Assembly: GCF_026210795.1 (NCBI RefSeq) | Contig: NC_089444.1 | Span: 1,292,501 to 1,356,500 of the forward strand | DNA: 64,000 bases | Direction: 5' to 3' | Source of the DNA: Rhizophagus irregularis | Taxonomy: Eukaryota; Glomeromycota; Glomeromycetes; Glomerales; Glomeraceae | Part shown: one piece after another, positions 13,001 to 64,000 of the stretch | How the letters are laid out: each line of letters starts with the position of its first letter | How positions within the stretch are numbered: the stretch's first letter is position 1 | The notes under the pieces: generated by a model | Database searches by the model: none | The model's input: the letters and a program-made list of their open reading frames with translations, nothing else | What the model was told of the DNA's origin: nothing | Made by a program: the position numbers and the translations under genes

Positions 13001-13303
13001 GCCTTCAATATAAATATCACCATCAATATTTTTGAATTCAATCTCTAATGAATAAGCAAAACTATGTTTATTATTTCCTGGTACTGAAAATTCAACTTTA
13101 ATTTTACGAGTACTATAGTTAATAACAAAATTGATAAGTTCAGTATATTTTTTTTCAGAGACAAATATGTGTGGTTGCAGATAAACACCCATCTCTAAGC
13201 TTTCAGCTTTAATAATATATCTTTCATATTGAGGTCGAGTACTATTATTGTTTCTATAATTACGAATATATTCCCGAGTTGCATATTCATTATTGGGTGG
13301 CAT
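10007..13303 (-). CDS. RNA-dependent RNA polymerase (QDE-1/RDR family)
   Basis: Exon 1 is 13303-11109 and exon 2 is 11018-10007, joined across a 90-bp GTATGT..TAG intron; the product is about 1,068 residues. Cellular RdRPs of this family copy RNA into double-stranded RNA for Dicer, feeding RNA interference. The catalytic aspartates are visible in SGGDLDGDDF (about residues 722-731), the family's DxDGD signature. Upstream blocks such as LRDHSCWFFA, GQCFSSTRA and VFSDGIGKIS fit the RdRP core. The intron falls two bases into the Thr codon just after the catalytic motif, and exon 2 carries the C-terminal part plus an Asn/Gln-rich tail. No stops or frameshifts were found, so it is probably functional. 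The start is the first Met of the open frame. Glomeromycotan fungi carry many RdRP paralogues, so an orthologue symbol would be unsafe. Confidence 0.93.
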
Positions 13304-13872
13304 GATGGATTTTTTTTTTTACAGGATTTTTTTTTTCTTTACGGAATTCAGGTGAAACTTGTAAGAAATTATATTATAATGATCGTATAAGGAATGTTTA
13401 TATAAGACGATATTGTTAAACAAATGCCTTTTTTAAAAAAAAGAATTCTAAATTCTTTTTTCTTATTTAACAATAAAAGACCTCGTCATTTAAACTATTT
13501 TTAATTATTTTATTTATTCGGTTAGATCATTATAATTATGTTATTATTAATTTTTCACATCGAAATATTAATAATTACATTAGATCCAAATGAAATCTGT
13601 CATCACCCGCGGATATACTAACTACTATATTAAAATATTATAAACATTTCATAAAGAATATTCTAAGATTCTCTGTTTATAATGTATTCCTATGTTGTTG
13701 ATTTGGTAACAATTACAAAACCCTTTTAAATATAGATTGTGTAAAACGATATCGGAAAAACCTTTTTTTTTTAAATAAAAACAACTTTGAAAAACTCATG
13801 AAGTCTTTTTGTGAAACATACTTTATATTTATTGTATGTTCAAATTGGTTTTATTATCGGTTAAACGATATT

Positions 13873-28631: not shown

Positions 28632-31334
28632 ATGAATTTCTCAAAAATCAAAATTAACAAAAAAATGTGTTTAATTAAAATAATTAAAATATTATTTAGA
28701 TTTTTAACAAACAAATGTTTAGAATGTGGTAATATATATACACCTAATAAAAGGTATAGATGGTGTAAACCATGTCAAATAAATCATTTAAAAAATAATT
28801 TTAAAAAATTAATGATTATAGGGATATAATATTTGAATGGATACCTTATGATAAATTTGATAATATTAAAGAAATAGGTATTAATAGTACTAATAATAAT
28901 AAAAATGATTCATCAATTACTAAAACTTATTTCGCAACATTTAAAGATGGTCCATTATATTATAGAAATATTTTTTGGGGTTATTTAAGATATATAGATG
29001 CGGTGGTTGCTTTAAAATGTTTTAATATAAATTTACAAGATGAAGATGCTATTGATGAATTTTTAAATGAGGTACTGTACTGTACTACTGTACAGAGAAA
29101 TTATTAAAATTATTATATATTATCAAACAAAGGAGTTAATTCCTTTTTTTCTTTTCTTTAATAGATTTTAAGAAATTTTACGATAAAAAAAATTAGTAAT
29201 AATATTAAAATTTATGGAATATCTCAAAATCCAAATACAAAAGAATATATAATGGTAATTCATGAAGGTTATTTTGAAAGGTATTATAAAGAATATTGTA
29301 TAAAATGTGCTGAAATGTATACGAATACAAATTATAATTGGTGTAAACCATGTCTAATAAATTATATCAAGGAAGATTTTATATATTGGAATAGTGGTAA
29401 AAAAGAAATTGATATCTTCATTCAAGAAATGCAATTAAAAATTAATCATCACAGTGATATAGTATTTGAGTGGATACCATACAATCGATTTAACTCTATT
29501 AAAGAAATAGGAAAAGGTGACTTTACTACAATATATTCAGCGAAATGGAAGGATGGACCATTATCCTATAATCAGCATAAAAAGGTGTATACAAGAGATT
29601 CTGAAATGATTAATTTAAAATGTTTTGATAAATCAAAATATACAATTATTGAATTTTTGAATAAGGTAATGAATAAAATTTCTATGAATTCAAATTAAAT
29701 AAATTTTTTCTAACATAATGATAATATTCTAATACTGTGATATTTTAATACTGTAGATTGAAAATTATACAATCAAAAGGGATGTCGCTGAAGTGTATAA
29801 TAAATATAAAAGAAATGTCACTAAAGAGAATAATATTAAAATGTATGGAATATCCAAAGATCCGAAAACAAAAAATTATATCGTGGTACTTGAAAATCAA
29901 TATTTTGAAAAATATTGTGCTAAATGTGATAAAAATAATGGTTTGTGTGAACAATGTCAAACAAATGATTTAAGAAAAAATTTTGTAAACTGGAGCAGTG
30001 GGAATGAAAAAATTGATGGTTTAATTCAAGAAATGCAATTAAAAATAAATAGTCCAAGTAACATAATATTTGAATGGATACCTTATAATCAGTTTTATGG
30101 TATTAAAGAAATAGGTAAAGGTGGTTTTGCTATAGTATATTCAGCAATATGGAAAGATGGTCCATTAAAATATGATACAAATAGAAAGGAATATACAAGA
30201 ATATCGGGCAAGACAATTGCTTTAAAATGTTTAGATAATTCACAAAGCATCACTGATGAATTTAATAAATGAGGTAACGTTATGCGACTAATACTTTTAA
30301 GGGTATTACTAAAGTTTACCAATGGCTGGTGATAGTCACCATACCAGCATTTCGGCCAGAATTAAAAATCTAATACTGGCCGGCATTATACCACTGGTAA
30401 CCGCCGCCGCTGATGATATTTAGTTATACTCTACTTTTAAAAAAAACTCTTTTTTAACTTTTAATTTTCTCTTTAGGTTAAAGCATATTCAATTAATAAT
30501 TTTGATAATTCTGGTAAAGTACTTGAAATATATGGAATATCGCAAAATCCAGATACAAAAGATTATATTATGGTACTTCAATATGCAGAAGGTGGAAATT
30601 TTAATGATTGGATAAATAATAATCAAAAATATTTTAATTGGACAAATAAATTAAAAGTATTATGTAACATTATTAGTGGTCTTAAAGAAATTCATCAAAA
30701 AAAGATGGTTCATTGTGATTTTCATATAGGAAATATATTATTTAAAGATATTCATTGGATTTCTTCAAATTATATTTCAGATATGGGATTATGCGGAAAA
30801 GTTGGTAATGTAGATAAAACAAATCTTTATGGAGTTATGCCTTATGTATCACCTGAAGTATTAAGAAGAAAACCTTATACTCAAGCAGCAGACATATATA
30901 GTTTTGGTATGGTTATGTATTTTGTAGCAACTAAAAGACAACCTTTTGCAGATTATGCGCATGATGAGGTTTTAGCATTAGATATATGTAAAGGAATTAG
31001 ACCCGAAATAAATGAGGCGGAAGCACCTAAATGTTATATTGATTTAATGAAAAGATGTTGGGATTCAAATCCAGACAAAAGACCAAGTGCTATTGAAATA
31101 GAGGAATTGATTAGGTTATTTTATAATTCATATTGTTCAACTAATACAAGACGAGAAGGGATTGAAATTGAAAAACAATTCAAAGAAGCAGAAATGTTTC
31201 GAACAACAATTAAAAATAGTCAATTAATTATTCATACTCAAGCTGTTTATACATCTCGATTACTTAATTCTTTTACAAAAGATCTTGCAGAATATACCAA
31301 TGATAATACGGAATGTTTAGATTGTGAAATATAA
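28632..31334 (+). CDS. TKL-like kinase locus A: three N-lobe exons and a catalytic exon
   Basis: Exons: A1 28632-29071, A2 29165-29665, A3 29757-30273, A4 30477-31334. A1-A3 each carry a zinc-ribbon-like pair (CxxC ... CxxC), a glycine-loop region and an LKC lysine motif. A4 starts with the beta-4/beta-5 stretch (IYGISQNPDTKDYIMVL) and holds the C-lobe: HCDFHIGN (HRD position), ISDMGLC (DFG position), SPEVL (APE position). A canonical HRD arginine is absent and DFG reads DMG, as in many divergent fungal TKL kinases. Lesions: A1 has lost about 19 residues with a frameshift near 28805; A3 has one extra base near 30263 creating a TGA at 30270 just before the donor. A2 and A4 are intact. The locus may be a partial pseudogene or use only some exons. 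Substrate unknown. Confidence 0.65.
30315..30402. mobile_element. GC-rich hairpin MITE-like insert in intron 3 of locus A
   Basis: Within the intron between A3 and A4, TTTACCAATGG pairs with CCACTGGTAA, GCTGGT with ACCAGC, and GGCCAGAATTA with TAATACTGGCC. It is strikingly GC-rich compared with the intron. The core GGCCAGAATTA...GGCCGGCATTA also occurs in the MITE at 49282-49416, so both probably belong to one family. Confidence 0.5.
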
Positions 31335-34560: not shown

Positions 34561-37500
34561 ATGCGAAGATCGATAAGAAAGTTAAAAAACAGATGTATAA
34601 AGTGCGGTGGAATGTATACATATGAACAATATAAATGGTGTAAAACATGTGAAATAGGTCTATTAAAAGAAAATTTTAAAAATTGGACCAGTAAAAATGA
34701 AAAGATTGATAATTTAATTCAAAAAGTTCAATTAAGAATTAATGATCCGAATGATATAATGTTTGAATGGGTACCATATGATCAATTTAAAATTAAGGAA
34801 GTGGGTAAAGATGGTCCCGCCACTGTATATTTAGCAAAATGGAAGGATGGTCCATTACGTTGGGATAAAAAGAAGTATATAAGAGATTCGGATAAAACCG
34901 TTGTCTTGAAATGTTTGAACGTCTCACATAATGTGAATTTAAGTGATGAGGTATTTATTTTTTTTAATTATAAGTTATATTGTATATTTGATATTGTTTC
35001 TTTTATTTATTATGATAATAATTTCTTCTTTTATTTATAGGATGTGGAATATTCAGTAAAATGGTATATTGATCTTAAGATATTTGGAATATCTCAAAAA
35101 CCTGATACGAAAGATTATCTTATGGTTCTTAGTAATAAATATTTTGAAGAATATTTCAAAGGATATTGTGTAAAATGTGGTGAAATGTATAAGAATACTC
35201 AACATAAATGGTGTAAAACTTGTTTAATAAAATATTTGAATGAAAATTTTAAAAATTGGACTAGTGGAAATGAAGATATTGATAAATTGATTCAAGAATT
35301 TCAATTAAAAATCAATGATTATAGAGATATAATAATTGAATGGATACCATATGATAGGTTCGATAATATTGAAGAAATAGAAATAGGATTTACTTCTGTA
35401 TGTTCAGCAGTATGGAAGGATGGTCAATTAAAGTATGATACAAATGCAAAGAAATATCAAAGGAATGGAAATGGTAGAGTTACTTTAAAATCCTCTCAAA
35501 ATACGTTGGACGAATTATTAAATGAGGTATGAAATTCTTTTTTTTTGAACTTCGAAAAATTTTATTCGAGATCTTCTAATAATTTTTTTTTCTTTTTTTT
35601 TTTTACAGGTCAAGGATTATTCTATAAACATTTACAGCAATGCTCTTAATATTTATGGAATATCTCAAAATCCTAATACTAAAGAATATATTATAGTTCT
35701 TCAAAATAAATATTTTGAAAAATATTGTGAAAGTTGTGGGAAAACATATTCAAGAATGCATAAATGGTGTAGAACATGTCAATTAGGTTATTTAAAAAGA
35801 TATTTTACATGTGGTGATGGTAAAATTGATGAATTAATTCAAGATATGCAATCAAGAATCAGTAATCCAAAAGATATAATATTTGAATTAATACCATACG
35901 ATCAATTTGATGATGTAGAAAGAGATCCCATAGGATACTCGGCAATATGGAAGGATGGTCCATTGGTCTATAATTCAGATACAAGAAGATATAGTAGACT
36001 TCCAAATGGAAAATTCGCTTTAAAATTATTAGATGGTTCAAAAGATATGATTAGTGAATTCATTATTAAGGTATGACATCTATTATATATTTATTATTCA
36101 TCTTTTTTTTTTCGATTATATTTAATTTTTTATGGTTTTTTTAATAGGTTAAAGAATATTCGATAAATATTAGCAGCAATATTCTTAAAATATATGGAAT
36201 ATCTATACATCCAGATACAGGAGATTATTTACTGGTTTTTCAAGATAAATATTATGAAAAATATTGTGTACTGTGTAGTAAAATGTATTCAAATATGTAT
36301 AAATGGTGTAAACCATGTCAAATTAATTATTTAAAGAATTGTGTTAGTGGCGTGGACGAAAAAATCGATAATTTCATTCAAGAAATGCAATTAAAAGTCA
36401 ATAATCCAAAAGATTTGTTATTTGAATGGGTATCACCTGATCAATTTTATGATCTTAAAGAGATAGGAAAAGGGGGTTTTGCTACAGTATATTCAGCGAA
36501 ATGGGAAGATGGTCCTTTATCTTATAATGCGGAAACAAAAAAATATGAACGGATACCTGATATGAGTTTTGCTTTAAAATGTATGGATAATTCACAAGAT
36601 ATGATTGACGTGTTTTTAAATAAGGTCAGTATTTTATTTGTTAAAATTTTAACGCTTTTTTTTTTTTTTTTCTTAAAAAATTAATAAAATTTTTTTTATT
36701 ATTATTATTTGATAGGTTAAAGATTATTCAATTGATTATTTAGATAATAAGATTAAAATATATGGAATATCTCAAAATCCGGATACAAATGATTATATGA
36801 TGGTTCTTGGAGATCATTATGGTGAAATGTATTGTATAAATTGTGAGAAACCGTATAAAAATGGGTATAAATGGTGTGAACCATGTCAAATGAAATATTT
36901 AAAAGGTGAATTTAAAAATTGGACCAGTGGAAATGAAAGAATCGATTATTTTATTCAAGAAATGCAATCAAAGATTGATTGTCCAACCGATAATGTATTT
37001 GAATGGATATCATTTAATCAATTTAGTAATATTAAAAAAATAGGAAAAGATGGGTATACAACAGTATATTCAGCAGTATGGAAAAGTGGACCACTATGTT
37101 ATAATTTACATGACAAAAGAGAATATGCGAGAGATTCAAATAAATCAGTTGCTCTAAAATATTTAAATGATTCTGAACAATTGGTTAATAACCTTTTTGA
37201 TAAGGTATGATATTCTTTTAATTGATTTTTATAATAATTTTTTATTTAATTTTTTTAATTTTTATAATAATTTTTTTTTTTGGTTAATAGGTTAAAAAAT
37301 ATTCAATAAAGATCGATGGTGATTGTATAATACATGGAATATCTCAGCATGTAACTACAAAAGAATATATTATTGTACTTGAAAATAAATATTGTGATAG
37401 ATATTGTAAAATATGTGGTAACGTATATATAGATATAGATTATGGATGGTGTAAAGAATGTAAAGTAATAAATTATACAAATTGGAATGGAAATGAAAAA

Positions 37501-38718
37501 GTTGATAATTTAATTCGAGACATAAGATCAGAAGCTGTTGAATATTTTGATGAAGTGAAAATATCTGAAGTATTTGAATGGATACCATATAATAATTTTG
37601 ATGATATAAGAGAAATAGGAAAAGGTGGATTTGCGTCAGTATATTCAGCGATATGGAAGGATGGTCCATTATTTCATAAAAGGAAGAAAGATAAATTATC
37701 AAGAGCACCAGATAAAAAAGTTGCATTAAAATGTTTATGTAATTCACAATTTCTCACTGATGAATTTTTAAACAAGGTATGGATTTATTTATTTATTTAT
37801 TTAAAAAAAAATAATAAACGGTATATCTTATTATTTGTATTTTAATAATGATTCATTTTTTATTAGGTTAAAAGATACGCAATTAATAGTGTTGATAATT
37901 CCGGTAAAATTCTTAAAGTTTATGGATTGACCCAAAATCCAAATACAAAAGAATATGTTTTAGTTCTTCAATATGCTGAAGGTAGAAATCTCAATTATTG
38001 GATAAATCATAATAGTAACCTTAAAAATTTTAATTGGTTAATAAAATTAAAAGTATTAGAAAATATTATTAGTGATCTTAAAGAAATTCATCAAAAACAA
38101 ATGATTCATTGTAATTTTCATACAGGAAATGTTTTGGTTAAGGGGGTTTATTGGGTTTTCTCAAATGATAATATAACTATATCAGATGTTGGATTATATG
38201 GTGATGCTGGTAATACGGATGAAACAAAAATTTATGGTGTCATGCCTTATGTAGCTCCTGAAGTATTAAGAGGAAAATCTCATATTCAACAATCAGATAT
38301 TTATAGTTTTGGTATGATTATGTATTTTATAGCAACTGGAAGACAACCTTTTGCCAATCGTGCTCATGATCATAACTTGGCGTTAGATATATGTAAAGGA
38401 GTTAGACCTGAATCAAATGAACCAGAAATACCAAAATGTTATATTGATTTAATGAAAAAATGTTGGATTTCAAATCCAATGAAAAGACCAAATGTTACCG
38501 AAATAGAAGAATTGATTAGATTATTTTATAATTCTTATAAAACAAAATCAGATGATGATGAAATTGATAATGAAATTGAAGATCAATTCACTGAAGCTGA
38601 AACTTATCGAAAATCGAATAAATTTATTCAATCAAATATTCATCATCAAGCTATTTATATGTCTAGATTATTAAATTCTCACGTAAAAGATCTCAATAAA
38701 CATTTAAATGATGAATAA
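34561..38718 (+). CDS. TKL-like kinase locus C: six N-lobe exons and a catalytic exon
   Basis: Exons: C1 34561-34950, C2 35041-35526, C3 35609-36070, C4 36148-36624, C5 36716-37204, C6 37291-37776, C7 37867-38718, all phase 0, no stops; full inclusion gives about 1,213 residues. C1 begins with Met and a CxxC ... WCxxC zinc-ribbon-like motif, a NWTS.NEKID linker, a Gly-loop region and LKCL lysine motif. C2-C6 repeat this module, each preceded by the kinase beta-4/beta-5 stretch (YGISQNPDTK..). C7 has the C-lobe: HCNFHTGN at the catalytic loop, ISDVGLYG at DFG, APEVL. The catalytic Asp position reads Asn, suggesting weak or no activity. C4 and C6 keep GKGGFA; C2 and C3 have damaged loops. Locus C is convergent with locus B. 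Whether transcripts include all N-lobe exons or choose one is open. Confidence 0.8.
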
Positions 38719-38813
38719 TTAAACTTGAAAGGTTTATATAGAATAGAGTAGAAAAATATTAATTCGTGAACTTTATATAGAATATATATATATGTGTATA
38801 TTTCTTTTTTTTT

Positions 38814-38891
38814 GTTCAACACTGATTATAGAGTAAAACATGTAAATTTTTTTTTTCTCATAAATAAAAAAAAATCAGTTTGTAATTGAAC
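38814..38891 (+). repeat. Conserved inverted-repeat element downstream of kinase C
   Basis: Begins GTTCAACACTGATTATAGAG and ends AATCAGTTTGTAATTGAAC, closely matching the element behind locus A. It lies 95 bp past the stop codon of C7. Confidence 0.65.
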
Positions 38892-39492
38892 GAAATACAA
38901 AAAAAAATTGTGAATTTGTTATTATTATTATTTTTTTAAATAAATTATGAATGTGCGAGTAACGTTCGTCATTGTCTTTTGATATTTTATTAAATTTTTT
39001 CGTCTTTCAATAATTTTATCTTATAATTTTGATACGATAGGATGATAAATATTGCATATTCACGAAGATTGTTAGGTTTCGTTAGTCGTGTAGCAAATGC
39101 ACGGAGCTTTTGCAAAAAATATGGTTCATATGGAAATAATTGTTAAAAGAACATTATCTGGATAATAATCGATACTTTTTTGCACACTCAGGTGTCGATT
39201 TGTGTCAGCAGATGACGGTTGACAACTGACATGCGTCGCCTGGCTACCATTTTTGCGGGCGACACTAGGGTTGTTGCATCAGAAGTAGATTTACATCTGA
39301 TGAGCGTCCACTTGAATTACAAAACTTTTTTTTTATTTAGTGAAATTATTATAAGAATACTTGTATATCACAATAAAATGCATCATATTATGAAAATATA
39401 AAACTTAATCGATTTATGTGAAATATTATATTGGATATTAGATTTTTTTTAATGTGATAAATAAATTATTTACCAATTGAATTTGTAAAATT

Positions 39493-39944
39493 TAATTCGC
39501 AATTCGTGAGAGATGGAAAGATTTCATTAATGATCGGCGGGCAATTTTATATATAAATTCAATTATTGCCCATAATCTGGAGCCGAAATGCAATTATTGG
39601 TATATTGGTACAGTTTTATTGTAATTTCATAAAAGTACCAAACAAATTCTTGACTTCCTCCTGACTGAGGATATCTTCAAAATTGCAAATTTTAAATGAG
39701 AGCTGAAACTTGCAAAATTAGACATTTTCGTTAAAATTTACTATTAAAATCGTCGGCTGAAGATTATGGGTAGTGCTGGCCAAATTAAATATTATGGCAA
39801 TTAAAATTATTATAATATGGGCTAGGGGCTGCTTTACTTAGTTACAAATAAAATATGTAATAAAAATTAATATGTAAAATGCCCCGCCGGTTATTAAGTA
39901 AAATTTGACGAAAATCCTTTCTATTTCTCGTGAATTGCGAATTA
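39493..39944. mobile_element. MITE with long terminal inverted repeats
   Basis: TAATTCGCAATTCGTGAGAG at the left pairs with the complement of CTCGTGAATTGCGAATTA at the right, and similarity continues inward for about 75 bp, including CGGCGGG near 39536 and CCCGCCGG near 39886. The 450-bp element is non-coding. The palindromic ends leave the target duplication (TA or TTA) ambiguous. Confidence 0.65.
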
Positions 39945-40560
39945 ATGCTTATTATAACAGAGCCCTTGAATACACTGATATAAACCTCGTGATAATTTAG
40001 TGTTGAAATTATGCGGTTCTTATTGTATGGATATGAAAAATTATCCGAAGTTTGGAGTACGAACCTTAACTAAAATTGTTTCCACAATCCACATACAAAT
40101 TTACATAAATTTTTTACATCCGCGTACAGATTTACTCCAGAATTAAGGGTTTGACGTACAAAACTCATCAATGTACTTTTTATTATTTAATCATAAGTTT
40201 AAATGCCGGCGAAAGTAATTTAAATTCATCCAAAGATGGAAGTTAGCATGACGAAATCAGAAATTTTTAAAGCTTGTACAGAGATTGAATTTCAAAAAGT
40301 TTGTTTACAGAAATGTAATTATTTATTAAAAAACAAAATGTTCAGTGTACGTAAACATCAGATCTGAAGTTTAACATACAGATTGATTTGTACGGAAGTG
40401 ACATTTGTCTGCGGAAGGCTCAATAATAAAACTATGGCGTATTCAGATGCCCCATTATAACTTAATTTTATGTGATAAGTGTGATAAGACGCGTTCACGT
40501 CAGCTGTCACCTGATGCAAATCGAAACCCGAAGACATTCCACAAAATAGGAAGAATAATA

Positions 40561-40823
40561 CCGTCTAGCACTTCATAAAGTATACCCTTTAAGCGTACTC
40601 CACTTTAAAAGACCCGGGTATTTTATTAGATACAAAAATTTTATCATTTGTTAATACACCCTCCCCTTAATTCTGGTAATTTAAGCTTAGTTCTGGTCAA
40701 AATTACAATGCGGAATCCCCTCATATAATACCCGGTATCTCACAAAGTACCCACGGGTATTATTCAATTTTTAAACCAGATAAATTGTAAAAGATCCGGG
40801 GTACTTTATGCAGTGCTGGACGG
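40561..40823. mobile_element. TA-flanked MITE (CCGTC ends)
   Basis: CCGTCTAGCACTTCATAAAG at the left matches the complement of CTTTATGCAGTGCTGGACGG at the right with two differences. TA lies on both sides (40559-40560, 40824-40825), as in Tc1/mariner-type elements. Internal sequence is non-coding and contains ACCCGGGTATT-like patches. Confidence 0.75.
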
Positions 40824-41290
40824 TATTTTAAATTACTTAATCAAACATTTATTTTGGTCATCATTGTTTAAGCATTGCGGCAAAAACCCTGGGAATTAAA
40901 ATTGACTTATAGAAAGAAACATGTGATATCAATTAAGCAGTTTCCCTAAGAAATGTCAAATAATGATGCGCCTTTAACACTGGAAAAATAGGTTAGATAG
41001 TGGGAAAATTGGTTAGACGCAAGATTCCATACACTACATGTTAATACGCTGATAGTGTGAAATCCTACGCAATTATTTACTTGGAATGAAAGTCAAAGCT
41101 GGCATTTAATTAGCTCATACTGTATTATGCTTACACAAGTGTTGAAAAATTTTTTAATTTATATAAAAATTTGATTACTTATCATTAGGATTAAAAGATT
41201 GTCTTTCCTAAATTCATATTTATTGATAAGACTCGTTCTACACTAATTTATTTACTAATATAATAAGTTAATTTTATATGTTAATGGTTT

Positions 41291-41349
41291 GTTCAATTAC
41301 AAACTGATTTTATTTAAAAAGCTTACATCACTTTTAATCAGTGTTGAAC
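41291..41349 (-). repeat. Conserved inverted-repeat element downstream of kinase B
   Basis: On the minus strand it begins GTTCAACACTGATTA and ends AATCAGTTTGTAATTGAAC, with a shorter spacer than the copies behind A and C. It lies about 170 bp beyond the predicted stop of locus B. Confidence 0.6.
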
Positions 41350-41516
41350 AAAAACTAAATAAACTGAGGAAAAAAAAAGAAATAGATATACATATAATTT
41401 CTATATACTAAATGTTCATTATTATTGTTTCCAACAGATATAATAGTTATTGAATTATTTTTACCTTTAGTTCAAAAATCGAACAAATTTTTATATTATA
41501 AAGGACCTTTATTTCG

Positions 41517-44500
41517 TCAATTCTCATCAATCTTGCATTTTTCTAAATATTAAACCAAATTTAATATTTTATATATAAAAAAAGCATAAAGAAATAATTA
41601 CCTAAACTTTCGCTCATATTATTATAATTATCATCATTATCTTCATTGTTATAAGTTGTGATTTTTGAACTCAATTCACTATCATCAATATATTTTGGAA
41701 GGTCTTTCGTAAAAGGGTTAAGTAACCGAGAAGTGTAAATAGCTTGGGAATGAGTAGCTGATAGGCTATTTTCAAAAGATAAAAGATTTTTTTTTCTATA
41801 TTCTTCTGCCTCTTTAAATTTTGTTTCAATTACATACTTATATGAATTAATCAATTTTTCCAACTCAATAGCATTTGGTCTATTATCTGGATTTGAATCC
41901 CAACATCTTTTCATTAAGCCAATATAACATTTTGGTGCTTCTGGCTCATTTATTTCAGGTCTAATTCCATTACATATATCTAATGCTAGTTGATGATCAT
42001 GCGCACAATTATCAAAAGGTTGTCTTCCAGTTGCTGTGAAATACATGATCATACCAAAGCTATATATATCTGCTGCTTGAGTATAAGGCTTTCCTCTTAA
42101 AACTTCAGGAGCTACATAAGGCATAACTCCATAAATTTTTGTTTCGTCTATGTTACCAATTTCTCCACATAATCCCATATCTGAAATATATGTTTTATTA
42201 CGTAATGTATTATATAATATATTTCCTGTATGGAAATCACAATGAACCATATGTTTCTGATGTATTTCTTTAAGACCTTTAATGATATCAGATAATGTTT
42301 GTATTTTATATTTCCATTTAAAAATTTTATAATTTTTTTTTATCCAATAATTATTAATATTTCCACCGGTTGCATATTCAAAGACCATAATATAATTGTT
42401 TGTACTTGGATCTTGAGTCATTCCATATACTCTAAGTATATTACTTGATTTACTTGTATCTCTTGAATAATACTGAACCTATTAAAGTATAACATTTTAA
42501 TGATTTATTAAAAAAAGTTCAATTAAATAAATCAAAGAAATTCCATACCTCTTTTAGACATTCATTAGTGATATTTTGGGAGTTATTTAAACTTTTTAAA
42601 GCAACTAATTTATCTGAATTTTCTTTTTTATTCTGATTATAGTATTTTGGACCATTCACCCATATTGCTGAATATACAGTAGAAAAACCGCCTTTATCTA
42701 TTTCATTTACTCTTTTAAACTGATTATATGGTATCCATTCAAATAATATGCTTTTGTGATTATTAATATTTAATTGCATTTCTTGGATTAAACTATCAAC
42801 ATTCATATTTCCACTCCAATTTGTAAATTTTTTTTTCAAATCATTTATTTCACATGACTTACACCATTTATACTCTTCGATATTTGGATATTTTTTATTA
42901 CATTTTACACAATAAAATTCAAAATATGTATGATCTAAAACCATAATATAATCTTTTGTAACCGAATTTTGTGATATTCCATATATTTTAAGTGTATTAT
43001 TTGATTTGTTTGTATGGCAATTTTCTTTTAAATAATTTCGAATCTATTAAAAAATATAACATTTAAAGTATTATTTTATAAAAAAAAGGTAAACTAACAA
43101 ATAATAAAGTAATTCAATACCTTTTTCAGGAATTCATCAGTAATATATTTCGAATTACTTAAACTAATTAAAGCAACTAATTTATTCAGATTTCTTTCAT
43201 TATTATTATAAAATATTGGGCCGTTCTCCCATACTGCTGAATATACAATAGCAAGATCACTTTTGCTTACTTCTTTAATGTTTTTAAAGTGATTATATGA
43301 TATCCATTCAAATAGTATACTTTTGTAATCACAATCTTTTAACTGCATTTCTTGAATAAAATCATCGATATTTTCATCTCCACTAGTCCAATTTGTAAAA
43401 CTTTTTTTCAAATCATTTATTTGGCATGATTTACACCATCTATACTCAGTATTAGTATATTTTTTATTACATTTCACGCAATAATATTCAAAATACGTAG
43501 AATCCAAAACCATCATATAATCTTCTGTAACTGAATTTTGAGATATTCCATATATTTGAAGTGTATTTGTATTGTAATTTTCTTTTGAACAATTTTTAAT
43601 CTATTAAAGCACATAAAATACAAATATCATTTATTAAAAAAAAGTAAATCAAATAAGTCAAAGAAATCTCATACCTCTTTTATTAGATATTCATCAGTAA
43701 TATTTTTTGAATTACTTAAACCTATCAAAGCAACTAATTTATTTAAATTTTTTCTTTCATTCTGATTATAAAGTATTGGACCATCCATCCATATTGCTGA
43801 ATACACAGTTGCAAAATCACCCTTGCCTGTTTCTTTGACATCTTTAAATTGATTATATGGTATCCATTCAAATAATGTGTCTTTATGGCTATAAACTTTT
43901 AACTGCATTTCTTGAATATAATTATCAATTCTTTCATTCCCACTAATCCAAATTGCAAAATTTTCTCTTAGATAATTTATTTGACATCTTCTACACCATT
44001 TATGCTGTATAAATGTATCTATTTTATCACATTTTAAACAACATTTTTCCAAATATTGCAAATATTTATTATTAAGAATCAATGTAAAGTCTTTTGTATA
44101 TGGATTTTGAGATATTCCGTACATTAATCTATCGTATGTTATTGGATATTTAATTGCCTATTAAATTATGGAAAAAATCACTCAAATTTGTTTTTAGAAA
44201 TGAGTATTTAAATCAATTTATTAAAGAATTCATACCTTATATACCTCATTTAAAAATTCAATAGTAATATTATTATAAGAGGTAGGCAAACATTTCAAAA
44301 CAATATTTTCATGCTGATGCCTTGCGTATTCATTTTTCCAACTAGCCCAATATAATGGTCCATTCTTCCAACTTGCTGAATATATTGTAGCGAAATCACA
44401 TTTGTCTATTTCTTTAATATCATAAAATTGATTATATGGTATCCATTCAAGTATTACATCCTCATAATTATTAATAATTAATTGCATTTCTTGAATGAAA

Positions 44501-46928
44501 TTATCAATTTTATCATTTTTACTGGTCCAGTTTGCAAAATTTTCTTTAAAGTTATTTATTTGACATTGTTTACACCACTTTCTATCTCTGTTTGTATATA
44601 ATTCATCACATTTCATACAGTAATGTTCTAAATAATCAATATCTATTAAAACTACGATGTAATCTTTAGTGTCTGGATTTTGAGAAATTCCATATGTTTT
44701 ATCTCCATATTTATATATATGTCTCTCCAAATGGTTATCCCCCTAATAAAATATGAAAAAGAAATCCACTTAAATTTTGGTTTTTAGATATACTAAGTAT
44801 TAAATCAACTCATGAAGAAATTTCATACCTTACTTATCTCCTTCAAAAACCCGTCAATATTATTATGTGAATTTCGTAGACATTTTAACCAAACTTTTTT
44901 ATAATTTGAATTCCTTGTATATGTTTTACCATGCCAATTTCCATACCAATTTAATGGACCATACTCCCATAATGCTGAATATACTATAGTAATCTCATTT
45001 CTTCCCACTTCATTAATATTATTAAAGTGATTGTATGGTACCCATTCAAATATTATGCTTTTGTAATCAATAATATTTAGTTGCATTTCTTGAATATATT
45101 TATCAATTATATCATTTCCACTGGTCCAGCATGCAAAATTTTCTTTAAAGTAATTTATTTGACATGGTTTACACCATTTTTCATAATGGTGTGAATATGA
45201 TCTGTAACATTTTTTACAACCATACCAATCATTTAAGACCATGATATACTCTTTTGTGTTTTGATTTTGGGATATTCCATATACATTTACCAAATATTTA
45301 CTTGACTATTAAATTATAAAAAGACTTAATTATTTTATTAAAAGAATAAGTAATCAAAACAAAATAATTTCATAGAGAATTTCTTACCTCATATATTTCA
45401 TTCATTTCATTTAAAAATCCATCAATAATATTATCATGTAAGTTATGTAAACATTGTAAAATAACCTTTTTATCTGGTGAATCTCTTATGTATTTCTTAT
45501 TATCTTCATTCCAGTATAATGGACCATTCTCCCATGATGCTAGATATACTGTAGTAATATCATATTTACTTACTTCTTCAATATTATAAAAATGATTGTA
45601 AGGTATCCATTCAAATATTACGTTATCGTAACAATCAATCTTTAATTGTCTTCTTTGAGTAAAATTATCAATTTTATCACTTTTACTGGTCCAGTTTGCA
45701 AAATTTTCTTTAAAGTTATTTATTTGACATTGTTTACACCACTTTCTATTTCTTTTTGTATATACTTTATCACATTTCATGCAGTAACATTCAAAATATT
45801 CAATATCTAAAACCATGATGTAATCTTTTGTATCTGGATTTTGAGATATTCCATATACTGAATATTCACTTAACTATTAAATTACAAAAAGACTTAATCG
45901 ATTATTTTATTAAAGAATAAGTAATCAAAACAAAGTAATTCATGGAGAATTTGTTACCTTATAATATATTTCATTTATTTCATTTAAAAATCCATCAATA
46001 ATATTATCATATAAGTTATGTAAAAATTTTAAAATAACCTTTTTATCTGGTGAAGTTCTTATGTATTTCTTATTATCTTCATCCCAGTATAATGGACCAT
46101 TTGCCCATAATGCGAAATATGCTGTAGAAAAATCATATTTACCTACTTCTTTAATATTACAAAAATGATTGTAAGGTATCCATTCAAATATTATATCATC
46201 GTAATAATCAATTTTTAATTGTCTTCCTTGAATAAAATTATCAATTTTATCATTTTTACTGGTCGAGTTTGCAAAATTTTCTTTAAAGTTATTTATTTGA
46301 CATTGTTTACACCATTTTCTATTTCTTTCTGTATATACTTTATCACATTTCATACAGTGGCGTTCAAAATATTCAATATCTAAAACCATGATGTAATCTT
46401 TTGTATCTGGATTTTGAGATATTCCACATACTGTATATTCACTTAACTGTTAAATTATAAAAAGACTTAATTATTTTATTAAAGAATAAGTAATCAAAGC
46501 AAAGTAATTCATGGAGAATTTGTTACCTTATAATATATTTCATTTATTTCATCATCAATAATATTATCATGTAAGTTATGTAAACATTTTAAAATAACTT
46601 TTTTATCTGGTGATTTTCTTATGTATTTCTTATTATCTTTATTCCAGTATAATGGACCATTCTTCCATGATACTAAATATACTGTAGAAGCATCATGTCT
46701 ACCTACTTCTTCAATATTATAAAAGTGATTGTAAGGTATCCATTCAAAAATTATATCACGGGGAATTCTTAATTGTCTTCCTTGAATAAATTTATCAATT
46801 TTTTCATTTCCACTGGTCCAGTTTATAAAGTTTTCTTTAAAAGATTTTATTTGACATCTTATACACCATGATCTCATATAAGAAAATAAATAATTATCAC
46901 ATTTTTCACATCGCTCATAGTTACTCAT
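41517..46928 (-). CDS. TKL-like kinase locus B: eight N-lobe exons and a catalytic exon
   Basis: Minus-strand exons: B1 46928-46527, B2 46446-45958, B3 45873-45388, B4 45305-44829, B5 44742-44236, B6 44157-43675, B7 43600-43121, B8 43043-42549, B9 42478-41602, B10 41542-41517. B1-B8 are each a multiple of three and phase 0; the total is about 1,573 residues with no stops. Each N-lobe exon has a CxxC ... WCxxC pair, a NWTS linker, FEWIPYN, a Gly-loop region and a beta-3 motif. The usual Lys is Gln in B3 and Ile in B6 and B7. B8, next to the catalytic exon, has DKGGFS and LKSL. B9 has HCDFHTGN, ISDMGLC, APEVLRG, so an Asp remains in the catalytic loop. B10 adds an eight-codon tail and its intron is less certain. 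Regulatory or decoy N-lobes, or exon choice, are both possible. Confidence 0.8.
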
Positions 46929-54454: not shown

Positions 54455-55791
54455 TCAATAAATAATTTCACAGTCTAAACATTCAGAATTATCATATTCT
54501 TGAAGTTCTGCTGTATAAGGATTAAGTAATCGAGATGTATAAATAGCTTGTGGATGTTGTTTGTTTTTCTTAAGAGAATGGTATAATTTTCTGTAATTTT
54601 CTGCTTCTTTAATTTGATTTTTAATTTCAACCTCATTTGATCCACCCATTTTATATGAAATATAAAATTTACAAAATGACTTGATTAATTTGTGAATTTC
54701 AATAGCACTTGGTCTATTACTTGGATCAGAATCCCAGCATCTCCTCATTAAGTCAATATAACATTTTGGTGCTCCTGGCTCGTTGATTTCAGGTCTAATT
54801 CCATTGCATATATCTAATACTAAATTGTGATCATGTGCACGATTGACAAAAGGTTGTTTTCCAGTTGCTGTAAAATACATAATCATACCAAAACTATATA
54901 TATCGGCTGCTTGAGTGTAAGTTTTATTTCTTAACACTTCAGGAGCCATATAAGGAATAACTCCATAAATTTTTACCTCGCTTGTATTATTCACATCTTC
55001 ACATAATCCCATATCTGATATAAATAATGATTTCTTATTAAAAGAATTTAAATTTTTTGTCAAAAATAATATATTTCCTGGATGTAAATCATGATGAACC
55101 TTCTGCTTTTGATGAATTCCTTTGAGACCTTCAATGATACTAAGTAGTGTTTGTATTTTATTTTTCCAATCGAAATCTTTATAATTTTTATTCATCCAAT
55201 AATTATAACTTCCACCTTCTGCAAATTCAAGAACTATAATATAATTTTTTGTATTTGGATCTTCATATACGTTAAGAATATCATTCATTTTATTAATTGA
55301 ATATTCTTTAACCTGTTCAAAAAAAAAAATATATATATTCTTAATTTAAAATAACATTTGATTATCAACTTATGAAAGAATCTATCCCATACCTCATTTA
55401 AGAATTTATCAGTCATAATTTGTGAATCATTTATACTTTTTAAAGCAATTTTTTTGTTTGAAACTCTTGTATACATTTTTTTATCAATATTATATTTTAA
55501 TGGACCATCTTTCCATATTGCTAAATATACTGTGGCAAATCCACCTTTACCTATTTCCTTTACATAATTAAATTGATTGTATGGTATGGATTCAAATACT
55601 ATATTGAAACAAGAATTAATTTTTGATTGCATTTCTTGAATTAAATAATCAAGTTTTTCATTCTCACTGGTGCAATTTATGAAATATTCTTTTAAATATT
55701 TTAATTGACATTGTTTACACCACATATGAGTATATTTTTCACCATAATTTTTACAATATATATATTTTACCATATTCCATGCAATATTCAT
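54455..55791 (-). CDS. TKL-like kinase locus D: N-lobe exon and catalytic exon
   Basis: D1 runs 55791-55393 (from an internal Met) and D2 55312-54455; the 80-bp intron is GT..AG and phase 0. D1 has a WCKQC half-ribbon, FESIPYN, a well-kept glycine loop GKGGFATVY and ALKS. D2 starts at the beta-4 stretch and has HHDLHPGN at the catalytic loop, ISDMGLC at DFG and APEVLRN. The usual YGISQNP is shortened to YEDP. The sequence before 55791 shows an acceptor and a beta-4-like block with stops and shifts (near 55800-55862), so D1 once belonged to a longer array. Whether the present product starts at 55791 is uncertain. Otherwise D looks able to encode a kinase of about 418 residues. Confidence 0.7.
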
Positions 55792-57163: not shown

Positions 57164-58686
57164 TTAATTCACTAAATCATCAACCTTATTTTCATCGTCA
57201 ATATCAATAGCACCTCTTAATTGTATTGAGTTAGACACTTCCAAGTCGATTAATTGAGAATCACAAACTATTGAAACAATAAAGTTAATAATTATTTAAG
57301 TAAGGATAAAATTTTTAAAAATAGAAAATACCTTCATTATTAACATATAAAGTACTAATAATGGATGAATTAACGGGTTTTGGTAATAAATTGTTAAATG
57401 TAAACGCTCTACTGGTATATACAGCATCAGAATTCTTTTCATACGAAGTTGAGATGTTTGGTATTTCTTTATCAGCTTCTTCAAATGCTGCTTTGATTTC
57501 GTTTCCTTTATAACCGTATTTTTCTTTATTATCTTCATTACCTTGAATAGAATTATACCAAAAACCAAATATATTTCTTAATTCTTCAGCTGCTGGTCTT
57601 TCATTTGGATTGACATTCATGCATTTATAAGCTAATTTCTTATAAAATTCAGGAGTTCCTTTTCCAAATTCTGGTCTGAGTCCATTACATATGGTTAATG
57701 CTAAACTTAAATCATGTTTTTTATTGTAAAAAGGTGGTTTTCCTGATGATAATTCAGCCATAATTACGCCTACACTATAAATATCGGATGATGATGTATA
57801 TGGTTCTCCGTTTAAAGCTTCTGGTGCAATATATGGCATTACTCCGTATACTATTTTATCATCTGATTTTTGTTCATTTGCTGGTCCAGATAATCCAAAG
57901 TCTGAAATACAAGTAGTATTAGTTTGTAAAATATTCCCACTATGAAAATCTTTATGTTTTAAGTCAACTAAAATATGTATTAAATAATTAATTTTACTTT
58001 CCCACATAATGGTGTTGAAGTTATTTGAAAGAATACTTCTCAAATTTCCTTCATCAGCAAATTGTATAATCATCATAAATTCTTTAGTTTCTAGGTCTTT
58101 AGTTAATCCATAAAATGTTAATCCAGCTCCATTAGAAATTTTCCAATGTATTTTAAGCTATATTTTAATAAATTTAAAATAAAATAATTAATACTATTAA
58201 ATACCCAAATGAAATAAATTAAATAAGATACAAAATAGTATAAAAACGTACTTCATTTAAATATTTATTTGACATATTCTGTGATCCATTTAACCTTTTC
58301 AAAGCGATTTTTATAGGATTAGGACGAACCTTTCCCCAACTTCCATCATCATTTTCATAGTACTCTAATTTACCATCAATCCAAGTTGCAGAATATACTT
58401 TGGCAAATCCACCTTCACCAATTTCTTTTATATCTGTAAATCTATCAAATGGTACCCATTCAAGAAATAGATAACTATATTTACGACTCCAATTTTTCGG
58501 CTTACACATTGTATCTTTTATAAATTTATCAATATCAGAATTTCCACTGGTCCATCCTTCCATTATTCTAAATGGGTCACATTCTTTACACCATAATCCT
58601 TTAGTAAAGGGTTTATTACAACATGAACAATTTTTGTGATTAAAATTTCCACCTGAGATATTTAATTTACTAAATTCGGTTCCCAT
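57164..58686 (-). CDS. TKL-like kinase locus E: simple two-module form
   Basis: Exons 58686-58252, 58157-57332 and 57267-57164 join through GT..AG introns of 94 and 64 bp; about 454 residues. Exon 1 has CSCC ... WCKEC, GWTSGNSDIDKFI, FLEWVPFD, the glycine loop GEGGFAKVYSA and ALKRL. Exon 2 has the beta-4 stretch, then HKDFHSGN (catalytic loop), ISDFGLSG (canonical DFG) and APEALNG. The stretch before HKDFHSGN is short: DLKHKDFH where siblings have about nine more residues (GLKEIHQKKMVHCDFH), an in-frame loss in helix E and the loop lead. The N-terminus MGTEFS fits the MGxxxS/T myristoylation pattern. This is the least duplicated kinase here and the likely ancestral layout. Substrate unknown. 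Confidence 0.82.
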
Positions 58687-60566: not shown

Positions 60567-61025
60567 TTACTTGTCGTGTTTTGGTCGTATCGGAATTTTT
60601 CTTTTGGACCTTTTTCTTTTTTCCTTCTGATTGTTATCTTTATGATTTTTTGGTGTTGCGTGTTTATGATTAGTGCCATTATCTGCAATTCTAACAAAAT
60701 TTCCTTCTTTTTCCACATCTTTTCTTCGATTTCTTATTTCAATATCTTCTAGTAACTTGTCTATCTGACATATTGCTTTATTGATCCTCTCCTCAGTCGA
60801 AATATTTTCATTTCTATCTTTATTATCTTTATTATTTATTTTAATTTCAATTCGTCGAGGACTTATTTTTGTATTAATGTAAATGTGTGTACCAGTCCCT
60901 TTCTCGATGGGTTTTAGATTACGCCCTTTACGACCAATTAATTTACCAATTTCAACATGGTCAGAAATTTCAATAATGGTCAAAATAGTTGAGTATCTGA
61001 TGGAATTTAGCATTTGCATTTCCAT
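60567..61025 (-). CDS. KH-domain RNA-binding protein
   Basis: A single-exon 152-residue protein. Residues about 8-95 form one KH domain: VEIGKLIGRKGRNLKPI holds the GxxG loop (GRKG) that contacts RNA or single-stranded DNA, followed by THIYIN and RRIEIKI strands and a helix (RINKAICQIDKLLE). The C-terminus is very basic (KEKRKRSKRKIPIRPKHDK), which could add nucleic-acid binding or nuclear import. No lesions. KH proteins act in RNA processing, transport or translation; nothing here fixes which. The start Met at 61025 has a second Met two codons later. Confidence 0.8.
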   Translation of the reverse strand: MEMQMLNSIRYSTILTIIEISDHVEIGKLIGRKGRNLKPIEKGTGTHIYINTKISPRRIEIKINNKDNKDRNENISTEERINKAICQIDKLLEDIEIRNRRKDVEKEGNFVRIADNGTNHKHATPKNHKDNNQKEKRKRSKRKIPIRPKHDK

Positions 61026-64000
61026 TTTTATGAAGAATTTAAAGATGATATATTATTATATATATTTTAAAAAAAGGAGGAAGAGAAATATATTATTTTT
61101 TTTTTGAAGATTTTTTTTTAAAAAAAAATGAGAACTCAAAAAAAGGAGTGTATTTATAATTTAGCAATTATTACAAATTACAAACAAAAAAAAATACATC
61201 GCAAATTGCAACAAAAACATATTCCATTCAACAAAAGTTTTATGTAATTATTATTATTAACAAAACCATTTTTTTAATTAACAAAGACAATGGTTTTGAT
61301 GATGAATTATGAAAAACGATTTTTTCAATAACTATTTTTTAAACCATGTTTATCATGTTTTTATTATAAAAGGTAATTATTTCTTTTAAGCATGAAAAGA
61401 CATCATAAGGATTTTCGCGTGTTAATAATATAACTGATAGTCAAGACTATCACAAAAAAGTGATAGCTGGGTTATTTTTAGCTGTCTGCTGTCTTGTGCC
61501 ACAAATTGCGTCATCAATGACAATTAACAAATGCTTTTGTTCTCAGTCATCAAAAAATAAAAAGAAAATTCTCCCTATCAAACAAACGACCAACCAGAAC
61601 GGCGTTCCACTTAATAGGGTAACAATGATTGTAGTACAACTTGATTAATTGGCTAATCGGTCTTATCCGTAAAAAAACCAAGAGAATTTAGATTTAACAT
61701 ATATACCCGAAAGAGAAATGGTTAAATGACATGACACGCTTAATCATGATATTCTTACGAAAGAGTTTTAAAGATATGTAAATATGTCTATTGTTTCAAT
61801 AATTACACTAAAATAAAACCTTCCAATGAACTAGTATTTAACAAATCTCGTTATTGTGAATAAACAAACATTAGTTATTAATTGGAGCGGTATCAAAAAA
61901 AAAAGCACGTTTACTTGGCCTAATTACTGATTATGTTTAGATAAATGAACGATTAAAACCGAGGACATATGTCGCCTAATAGGACAGTAATCGGACACGA
62001 ACTTAAAAAAAAAATTTATTTCATTTTTTTATTCTATATTTGGAACTTTACGTAATAAATGACAACCCACTAATGCACAAAATAAAATACTCCTAGAAAG
62101 AAGAAATTTTAATCAGTGGAAATAGCTAAAATTTCTTAAAACTACACAAATTTTGTAATTGTGCAGCGCAATATTATATTTAGTTTAGGTGTATAAATTT
62201 TTAAAGTATTTGTATTTACTGCGGTCTGGGATGACCTTAAACTATCATAAATTGGGTTTATTAGGGGATTAAACATCCGTAATGATGTAAAACTATTCTT
62301 GTGTAATTATTTAATTTTATTTTATTATATTACTAGCATTACTAGCAGTTACTCGTTGCTTCGCACCGTGGACCAATGAGTTTGTTTAAATAGAAAATAT
62401 TAGAATTAAAGACGGTTACAGCAGTTTTTTGTTTATAATTAAGTATGTATTAAATTATAATTATAATATTAGAATGATATAAATTATATTGAGAATTGGT
62501 AAACTTCGCCTGGGTCTTCGATCACGCGGCAGATTTAATATTTTCGATTGGCCAGATTGGCGTCATGTTTTATCGAGGTTCGTTTCCTCAGTTCTTTCGG
62601 TCTCGAGGTATTTTTCTTTCTTTTCTTTTATTTTTATTTCTAACTTACATTGCTTCTTACTAACTCTATTTCATTATTTTTAGGTCTTTTATCCGATTCT
62701 GCAATTAAGGTTCAGTTGTTTTTCACTTTATATTTCGTTTCTTATTTTTTATTTTTTTTATTTTGTTTCCGTTTCATATTTCGTTTTTCACTAATTTTAT
62801 TTAGATTTTTTAGTTCTATCGGTTCTACAATTAATAAAGGCATGTTTTTATTTTTTATTTATCTTTTTATTTTGCTTCTATCTTATATTTCGTTTCTTAC
62901 TAACTTCATTTTTTTTACTTTATTATTTATTTTTACTTGGTTTCCCTATAAAAAATTTTATCCGTTATTTCTGTAAAAACTCCGTAAAAATGAGCCTTTC
63001 ACGGATCCATTCATGGAAAATGTAAATAATTCGATAAATTCCATGATATAAAGTTATTAATTCCAGAAATATGAGCCTTTTACGGAAAAAAGATGGAATA
63101 AAAAAAAATGGATTACCTTTTTTTACAGGGTTTCCTATCATTATCTTTTGCTACATGATGATCATTTTTTTATTTTTTTGTCTCTCATAATTTTTCACTT
63201 CCTATTACTTCTCATTATTCCATTCTTTTCGTCTCCCATTATTTTCTATTTCTATTACATCCATTATTTCTTTTTCTCTCCTGTTTACTTCCCATCATTT
63301 CTTTTTGTCTCTCATCATTCCTTTTCGTTTCTCATCACTCCTCTTTATCTTCCCATCACTCCTTTTCATCTCCCATCACTCCTCTTCATCTTATAATCAC
63401 TTCTTTTCATTCCCATTTCTCCTCTACTCCCTTTCATCTTCAATTACTTTCCATTATTCCATTGTTATTTCATTTTTTTATTAGCATCTTTCTTCTTAAT
63501 CATTGTAATTTACTTAAACGAAATTAGAACAAAGTGAAGACGAAAAAAGAGAACAAGAAACAAGAACCCATCTGAAATTTCAAAGCACTGAAGTTGCCAA
63601 AGAGCTGAGATCTAAGATGAAACAAAATTAGAATGAAGTTAAAAAACGAAAAATTCCTTTCATTTAAAAAGAAATAAAAAAAATTTTTCATTTTAATCCT
63701 CCATTATTTAAAAAATTTTTTACCTTTTATTTTTTTCCCTCATCGGCCATTTCTTTCGTTAATTTAATAATATATTTTAAACACTAACTGTTAACGTAGA
63801 TACCGTAGTTAACAGGTGAATCCTAGTTTTATATAAAAATGAATGATAATCATTTCATTAGTGCTTAATAATTACCTAAGACGAAATGATTAACCAGTTA
63901 GTGCGATTTTGTAATAATTGATATACATTCCAGTTGTGCAAAATTTGTTTATCATATATGCAATGATGCAATGTTTTGTACTTGTGATCAACACTTTTGT
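61026..64000. other. AT-rich and pyrimidine-rich end of the window
   Basis: About 3 kb without a supported gene. A 62-codon frame at 61460 has no ATG start. From 62600 onward the plus strand becomes T/C-rich. A short Glu/Lys-rich coding-like scrap lies near 63535-63630 (EQSEDEKREQETRTHLKF) but ends at a stop. The window ends inside intergenic sequence. Confidence 0.5.
63140..63480. repeat. Pyrimidine-rich imperfect tandem repeat
   Basis: A unit near CATCACTCCTCTTCATCTCC, about 17-22 bp, recurs many times with substitutions. The 82-codon frame here (63148-63396) is a product of the repeat. Confidence 0.65.

Follow-up and report, generated by a model that had tools for sequence, protein, structure and literature searches.

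Kinase N-lobe exon arrays preceding a single catalytic exon in Rhizophagus irregularis

Exon arrays at loci C and B

We analyzed a 64,000-nucleotide stretch of the Rhizophagus irregularis genome (NC_089444.1, positions 1,292,501 to 1,356,500 of the forward strand; hereafter the window) containing two large arrays of exons that encode the amino-terminal lobe (N-lobe) of a protein kinase. Locus C (34561–38718, plus strand) consists of six N-lobe exons of 390, 486, 462, 477, 489 and 486 nucleotides (nt) followed by a single catalytic exon. Locus B (46928–41561, minus strand) consists of eight, of 402, 489, 486, 477, 507, 483, 480 and 495 nt, also followed by a single catalytic exon (Table 1). Exon limits were set by GT..AG signals together with the reading frame, and this delimitation bears out a first-pass annotation, made from the sequence alone, that had placed six and eight tandem phase-0 N-lobe exons before one catalytic exon. 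Every exon length in the two loci is divisible by three and every junction is in phase 0. The introns are 77–91 nt long in locus C and 70–86 nt in locus B.

Each internal unit begins with a beta-4/beta-5 stretch (YGISQNPDTKDYIMVL), followed by a zinc-ribbon-like CxxC...WCxxC motif, an NWTSGN linker, the sequence EWIPYNxF, the Gly loop, VALK and helix alpha-C. The residue labels used here (Gly loop, VAxK, alpha-C Glu, HRD and DFG) were assigned from general kinase knowledge. The cysteine motif is present in all 14 N-lobe exons of the two loci, as had been noted, and the catalytic exons do begin with the same beta-4/5 stretch that opens the internal exons. The first exons, C1 and B1, are without it. 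Other parts of the initial description needed adjustment. The linker, given as NWTSGNE in each exon, is not universal (TCGDGKID in C3, VSGVDEKID in C4 and WISGNERID in B6), and the segment from Gly loop to beta-3 is incomplete in some exons, the loop being lost in C2 and C3 and the beta-3 Lys in B3, B6 and B7. The exon border does lie between beta-3 and beta-4, and can now be placed at the end of helix alpha-C on either side of an internal unit.

An internal exon would thus contribute beta-4/beta-5 to the preceding N-lobe and begin the following one with a zinc ribbon, a linker and a beta-1 to alpha-C segment. If so, N-lobes would be completed across exon junctions and the order of the exons would matter. 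A structure model of exon C5 alone, built from a 16-sequence alignment, has a mean predicted local distance difference test score (pLDDT) of 68, with beta-1 to alpha-C better scored and beta-4/5 poor, and it matches kinases just over residues ~73–163 (Z ≤4.5, the top match covering 78–163). A read-through model of B5, the intron and B6 gives kinase N-lobe matches with Z up to 10.3 (root-mean-square deviation 2.7, 90 aligned residues). Because the match spans residues 77–226, B5 (beta-1 to alpha-C) and B6 (beta-4/5) appear to form one N-lobe in the native order. This low-confidence model is support, rather than proof, for an N-lobe completed across the junction. We reject a separate gene for each unit, as internal units start with beta-4/5 and, in loci B and C, stay free of stops up to the next donor.

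Table 1. Kinase-related features in the window
Feature	Position	Strand	Basis
C1: first exon; start codon, zinc ribbon, linker, beta-1 to alpha-C, GKDGP loop	34561..34950	+	GT..AG and frame
C2: internal unit (beta-4/5, zinc ribbon, linker, pseudo N-lobe); Gly loop lost	35041..35526	+	
C3: internal unit; Gly loop deleted	35609..36070	+	
C4: internal unit; exception, GKGGF retained	36148..36624	+	
C5: internal unit; loop GKDGY	36716..37204	+	
C6: last unit; canonical GKGGF loop and VALK	37291..37776	+	
C7: catalytic exon; beta-4 to C-lobe, PF07714, HCN instead of HRD, predicted inactive	37867..38718	+	
B1: first exon	46527..46928	-	
B2: internal unit; GKYDF	45958..46446	-	
B3: internal unit; SKYDI, VILQ (Lys lost)	45388..45873	-	
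B4: internal unit; GRNEI	44829..45305	-	
B5: internal unit; DKCDF	44236..44742	-	
B6: internal unit; GKGDF, VALI (Lys lost)	43675..44157	-	
B7: internal unit; SKSDL, VALI (Lys lost)	43121..43600	-	
B8: last unit; DKGGF loop and VALK	42549..43043	-	
B9: catalytic exon; HCD and DMG, catalytic Asp residues retained	41561..42478	-	
Locus A, first unit; two overlapping frames (frameshift or unrecognised intron)	28698..29071	+	profile match
Locus A, internal unit; GKGDF, INLK	29174..29665	+	matched stretch
Locus A, last unit; GKGGF, IALK	29811..30263	+	matched stretch
Locus A, catalytic exon; HCD and DMG	30477..31334	+	open frame
Locus E, single N-lobe exon; GEGGF, IALK, two-exon layout	58252..58644	-	matched stretch
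Locus E, catalytic exon	57315..58157	-	open frame
Two-exon kinase D, N-lobe exon; GKGGF, IALK	55393..55761	-	matched stretch
Two-exon kinase D, catalytic exon	54638..55312	-	matched stretch

Related arrays in the genome and their ATP-site residues

Genome searches with the single exons C5 and B7 as queries, taking the best 150 scored matches from each, led to 32 hand-picked regions where several matches to these upstream-type exons cluster, and profile hits were then chained. Across the window and the 32 regions, loci A, B and C included, 33 of the 38 chains with at least three unit hits terminate in a catalytic exon. For the other five (L010, L012, the first of L013, the first of L027, and L030) the fetched DNA contains no attached catalytic exon; these and the single-unit chains D and E of the window are left out of the set of 33 arrays considered below. 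The set contains 220 units (187 upstream and 33 last; 197 and 33 rows before split hits were merged), with 3 to 12 per array and a median of 6. A clean GT-AG pair was found at 204 of 231 hit-to-hit junctions, 199 of these in phase 0, and none was found by the script at the remaining 27; the median intron is 73 nt. A GIS-like beta-4 motif occurs near the start of 180 of the 197 non-first rows. First units are without beta-4/5 in 31 of 33 arrays, and in 25 of 33 a Met lies ahead of the zinc ribbon. The internal exons therefore seem to be links of a chain, since their beta-4/5 belongs to the previous N-lobe and first units usually have none. The same architecture is thus seen at least 33 times in this genome, a pattern far beyond chance.

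The units of an array are not equivalent at the adenosine triphosphate (ATP) site. Both glycines of the GxG motif are present in 30 of 33 last units, compared with 9 of the 183 upstream hits that span the loop (14 of the 197 rows fail to do so), and the second glycine is present in all 33 last units. A Fisher test on the rows that have letters at the loop, 33 last and 133 upstream, gives p ~1e-21. After removal of six look-alike loci the counts are 24/27 and 8/115 (p ~3e-17), with some mutually similar arrays persisting among those 27. The Ala of VAxK is found in 32/33 last units against 46/183 upstream, and the alpha-C Glu in 31/32 against 72/126, the upstream residue often being Lys. When middle and last units are compared column by column, the contrast falls mainly on the loop, the V after the loop, the VAxK Ala and the alpha-C Glu. 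Conservation is similar in the two groups at the four cysteines, the W of NWTSG, EWIPY, and the W and G that follow beta-2. In a tree built without the ATP columns, on 214 of 230 rows, the last units do not form one clade (23 label changes compared with 30.9 in shuffled labels; 7 compared with 31.2 for the N-lobe part alone). The split between last and upstream units may thus have arisen, or been maintained, repeatedly.

The four cysteines are retained in 172/178 upstream and 29/31 last units, and the zinc-ribbon Pfam matches, Zn_ribbon_NOB1 and HypA, are below cut-off. Six N-lobe exons run singly against Pfam gave no kinase match, and a sequence search of the PDB returned just two chance-level zinc-ribbon rows (E 0.23 and 0.34). 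Kinase counts based on Pfam may consequently register the catalytic exon alone.

The catalytic exons match PF07714 well above the cut-off of 23.1 bits (C7 about 94, 93.7–94.0; B9 107.1–108.8; E2 79.5; A4 106.6). The HRD Asp and the DFG Asp are each present in 34 of 35 catalytic exons, the two exceptions being C7 and one exon elsewhere (L006). Locus B has the residues for kinase activity, with both Asp residues and a DKGGF loop in B8. In C7 an Asn replaces the catalytic Asp (HCN for HRD), so locus C is probably catalytically dead, with the last N-lobe, C6, still intact and canonical. The loop, VAxK and HRD/DFG counts together suggest that the normal product of an array is an apparently active kinase behind ATP-dead N-lobes.

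The first-pass annotation had proposed that any N-lobe exon can serve the catalytic exon, in the manner of Dscam, which is a mutually exclusive array of tandem homologous exons. In such a scheme one N-lobe exon at a time would be spliced to the catalytic exon to give alternative kinases. Loci B and C and their relatives do share with Dscam the tandem homologous exons in one phase, and with phase-0 exons in multiples of three every combination in B and C is in frame. Joining exons in silico to the catalytic exon raises the PF07714 score by 0.6 to 15.6 bits for upstream exons, and C4, C5 and B6 are at the upper end (13.8 to 15.6 bits). However, the top gain in each locus comes from the last exon (C6+C7, 112.5 compared with 94.0 for C7 alone, +18.5; B8+B9, 131.9 compared with 108.8 for B9 alone, +23.1), and some upstream exons add almost nothing (C3 +1.3, B2 +0.8, B3 +0.6). 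Dscam exons are equivalent versions of the same segment, whereas an internal exon here holds parts of two N-lobes, and only first units resemble the start of a chain. Two upstream units are also fused in one open frame (L045, described below). Interchangeability is unsupported because every exon would need ATP-binding residues, yet generally just the exon adjacent to the catalytic one has them. We consider exon choice very improbable, and the analogy to Dscam does not hold at the ATP site.

Selection, integrity and the proposed chain

If upstream units were functionless relics of unequal crossing-over, with the last unit and the catalytic exon alone of importance, they should evolve neutrally. 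Between duplicated arrays omega is 0.51 for upstream units (29 pairs, 4,059 codons; bootstrap 0.45–0.59), 0.48 for last units (6 pairs) and 0.41 for catalytic exons (5 pairs). A neutral simulation of the upstream set with the same base-change spectrum gives a mean of 0.82 (0.70–1.00). Because the observed value is below this range, the upstream units are judged from these codon comparisons to be under purifying selection; single upstream pairs range from 0.15 to 1.32. The set comprises 40 unit pairs from 8 of 14 array pairs. It leaves out the near-identical L011/L012, pairs with few common units, and matches that seem non-orthologous (unit 9 to unit 6 of L010/L011; units 8 to 8 and 10 to 7 of L028/L030). 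The retained cysteines also argue against decay, as does the finding that 181 of 187 upstream units are free of a stop or frameshift. The lost Gly loops and occasional frameshifts would fit such relics, a profile search would miss strongly decayed units, and the family is, by the accessible text of one study, highly expanded and repeat-rich in this fungus (PMC8647823). On balance we regard decay as quite unlikely.

Stops or frameshifts were found in 6/187 upstream, 0/33 last and 1/33 catalytic units, and an apparent frameshift may equally be an unrecognised intron. Four more split hits are in frame and free of stops. The order of units can also be compared between loci: in L017 and L023 all six units and the catalytic exon are in common order. 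In L045, on contig C23, two upstream units occur in one frame of 329 amino acids (aa) with no intron between them, and the sequence across the join looks like the beginning of a neighbouring exon, as clean intron loss would leave it. The first-pass annotation was right to allow one multi-N-lobe protein as an option. Two other long frames (265 aa in L014 and 258 aa on contig C14) were inspected and contain no two-unit fusion.

Each array is, in our judgment, probably one gene that encodes repeats of a zinc ribbon and an ATP-dead N-lobe followed by one real kinase. All exons would normally be spliced into one long chain. The chain would consist of repeats of zinc ribbon, linker and pseudo N-lobe, and then a zinc ribbon, linker and true N-lobe joined to one carboxy-terminal lobe (C-lobe). 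The last N-lobe only would bind ATP with the C-lobe, and the upstream N-lobes would keep the fold but not the Gly loop. Partner kinases and regulators commonly dock on N-lobe faces, and for this reason the upstream N-lobes most plausibly serve the kinase as a tethered series of docking or regulatory repeats. The internal exon probably originated by unequal crossing-over between neighbouring two-exon genes. In this way a first exon would have acquired the opening part of a catalytic exon, and the fused exon would later have been copied many times.

Several observations weigh against this chain. No Met precedes the zinc ribbon in 8 of 33 first units and two of the 33 carry beta-4/5, so the array start was missed in some cases. 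Among upstream rows, the beta-3 Lys is retained in 164 of the 183 that have a letter there, so some ATP contact upstream is possible, and the GxG motif survives in a few upstream units, C4 among them. Exons C4 (+15.2) and B6 (+15.6) also give a fair gain when joined to the catalytic exon. Full inclusion would not accommodate the six broken upstream units, except in genes that are dead or where an intron accounts for the break. The fusion in L045 is one among three long frames inspected, and the array end and catalytic exon of that locus are outside the fetched stretch. The B5-intron-B6 model has a mean pLDDT of 63, includes an intron-encoded insert, and scores ~55–66 in its beta-4/5 blocks. 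Finally, as all B and C exons are in phase 0, any combination is in frame and skipping is possible.

Such skipping might be regulated. A constitutive long form could be combined with regulated omission of whole upstream units, so that repeat number is tuned and the last N-lobe and catalytic exon are always kept. The predominance of phase 0 at clean junctions and the variable array size are consistent with this arrangement, which would also tolerate stops or frameshifts upstream. However, split hits show no significant excess among upstream units (9/187 compared with 2/66 last and catalytic units, Fisher p 0.73), and the short introns leave little regulatory space. We consider regulated skipping unlikely, and prefer the single chain with all units included.

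More speculatively, and with little confidence, we suggest that N-lobe repeats without C-lobes, spaced by zinc ribbons and completed across exon borders in dozens of genes, would constitute a new class of repeat protein. The upstream lobes might compete for, or dock allosterically on, the single C-lobe or the C-lobes of sister kinases. Repeat number and sequence would then set activity and partner choice, as a built-in and fast-evolving recognition array.

Relation to known kinases and additional loci

Plant tandem kinase-pseudokinases have an inactive partner that is a whole kinase-like domain with both lobes. These proteins, of which Yr15 (PMC6170490) is an example, are the nearest known idea, and they likewise combine an active kinase and inactive kinase-like parts in one chain. 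The arrays repeat N-lobes only, with one C-lobe and zinc ribbons between the repeats; each of the 33 ends in a single catalytic exon, whereas a tandem kinase has at least two two-lobed kinase domains per chain. In JAK kinases, too, an inactive kinase fold precedes the active kinase, and the JAK2 pseudokinase is among our structural matches. JAK has one complete two-lobed pseudokinase, whereas the arrays have 2 to 11 N-lobes in its place. The upstream units resemble pseudokinases in the loss of ATP residues, with the N-lobe alone present and its fold taken from a low-confidence model.

The accessible part of one report gives 2,533 kinase genes for R. irregularis DAOM197198 (PMC10234402), and another names the kinase as the most frequent motif in inflated genes of this species (PMC6123716). 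Kinases are described in the available text of a third as a high-copy class, with expanded families occasionally forming tandem arrays of duplicate genes (PMC8647823). The arrays share genome and catalytic domain with this Ser/Thr/Tyr kinase family (PF07714). In their accessible portions the expansion papers speak of genes and domains, whereas serial N-lobe units with one C-lobe are a feature of the arrays described here. A literature survey, with subscription papers mostly outside its reach, found no description of N-lobe repeat arrays. For the known kinase expansion in this arbuscular mycorrhizal fungus, the array form offers a testable architecture, in which a single enzyme would be served by many half-domains that are ATP-dead and under purifying selection. 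Should the repeats bind partners or the C-lobe, they would provide an unusual way of regulating kinases, and of changing recognition quickly, in a plant symbiont.

Three further kinase loci are present in the window. Locus A (28698–31334, plus strand) is a third, shorter array with a two-frame first unit, two more units and a catalytic exon. Locus E has the simple two-exon layout that had been assigned to it, as does kinase D. Relatives of E are built alike: in a set of 12 loci, which are E itself (as L033) and close relatives of it rather than a random sample, all 12 combine a single catalytic part with a single N-lobe part whose loop is canonical. GEGGF and (V/I)ALK are present in each. The two parts are in separate frames in 11 loci and in a single frame in L044. 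Intron loss was considered for this 489-aa frame and dropped, as the sequence suggests an intron that stays open by chance.

The last unit of one L014 array (6102–6896, plus strand), which lies in the 265-aa frame, has a long Asp/Asn-rich stretch ahead of beta-4. Comparable acidic stretches are present within one L022 unit and, in L014, within the first exon of its other array. L011 and L012 (C14, about 710–726 kb) are nearby duplicate arrays; because four of their units are identical in protein, a very recent segmental duplication is suggested. Elsewhere in the window, two adjoining frames at 10010–13318 on the minus strand match one RNA-dependent RNA polymerase end to end (PF05183 positions 1–442 and 443–582), with a frame change near 11080 that is either an intron or a frameshift. 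A weak KH domain match (PF00013, 23.8 bits compared with a cut-off of 21.5) is located at 60570–61052 on the minus strand.

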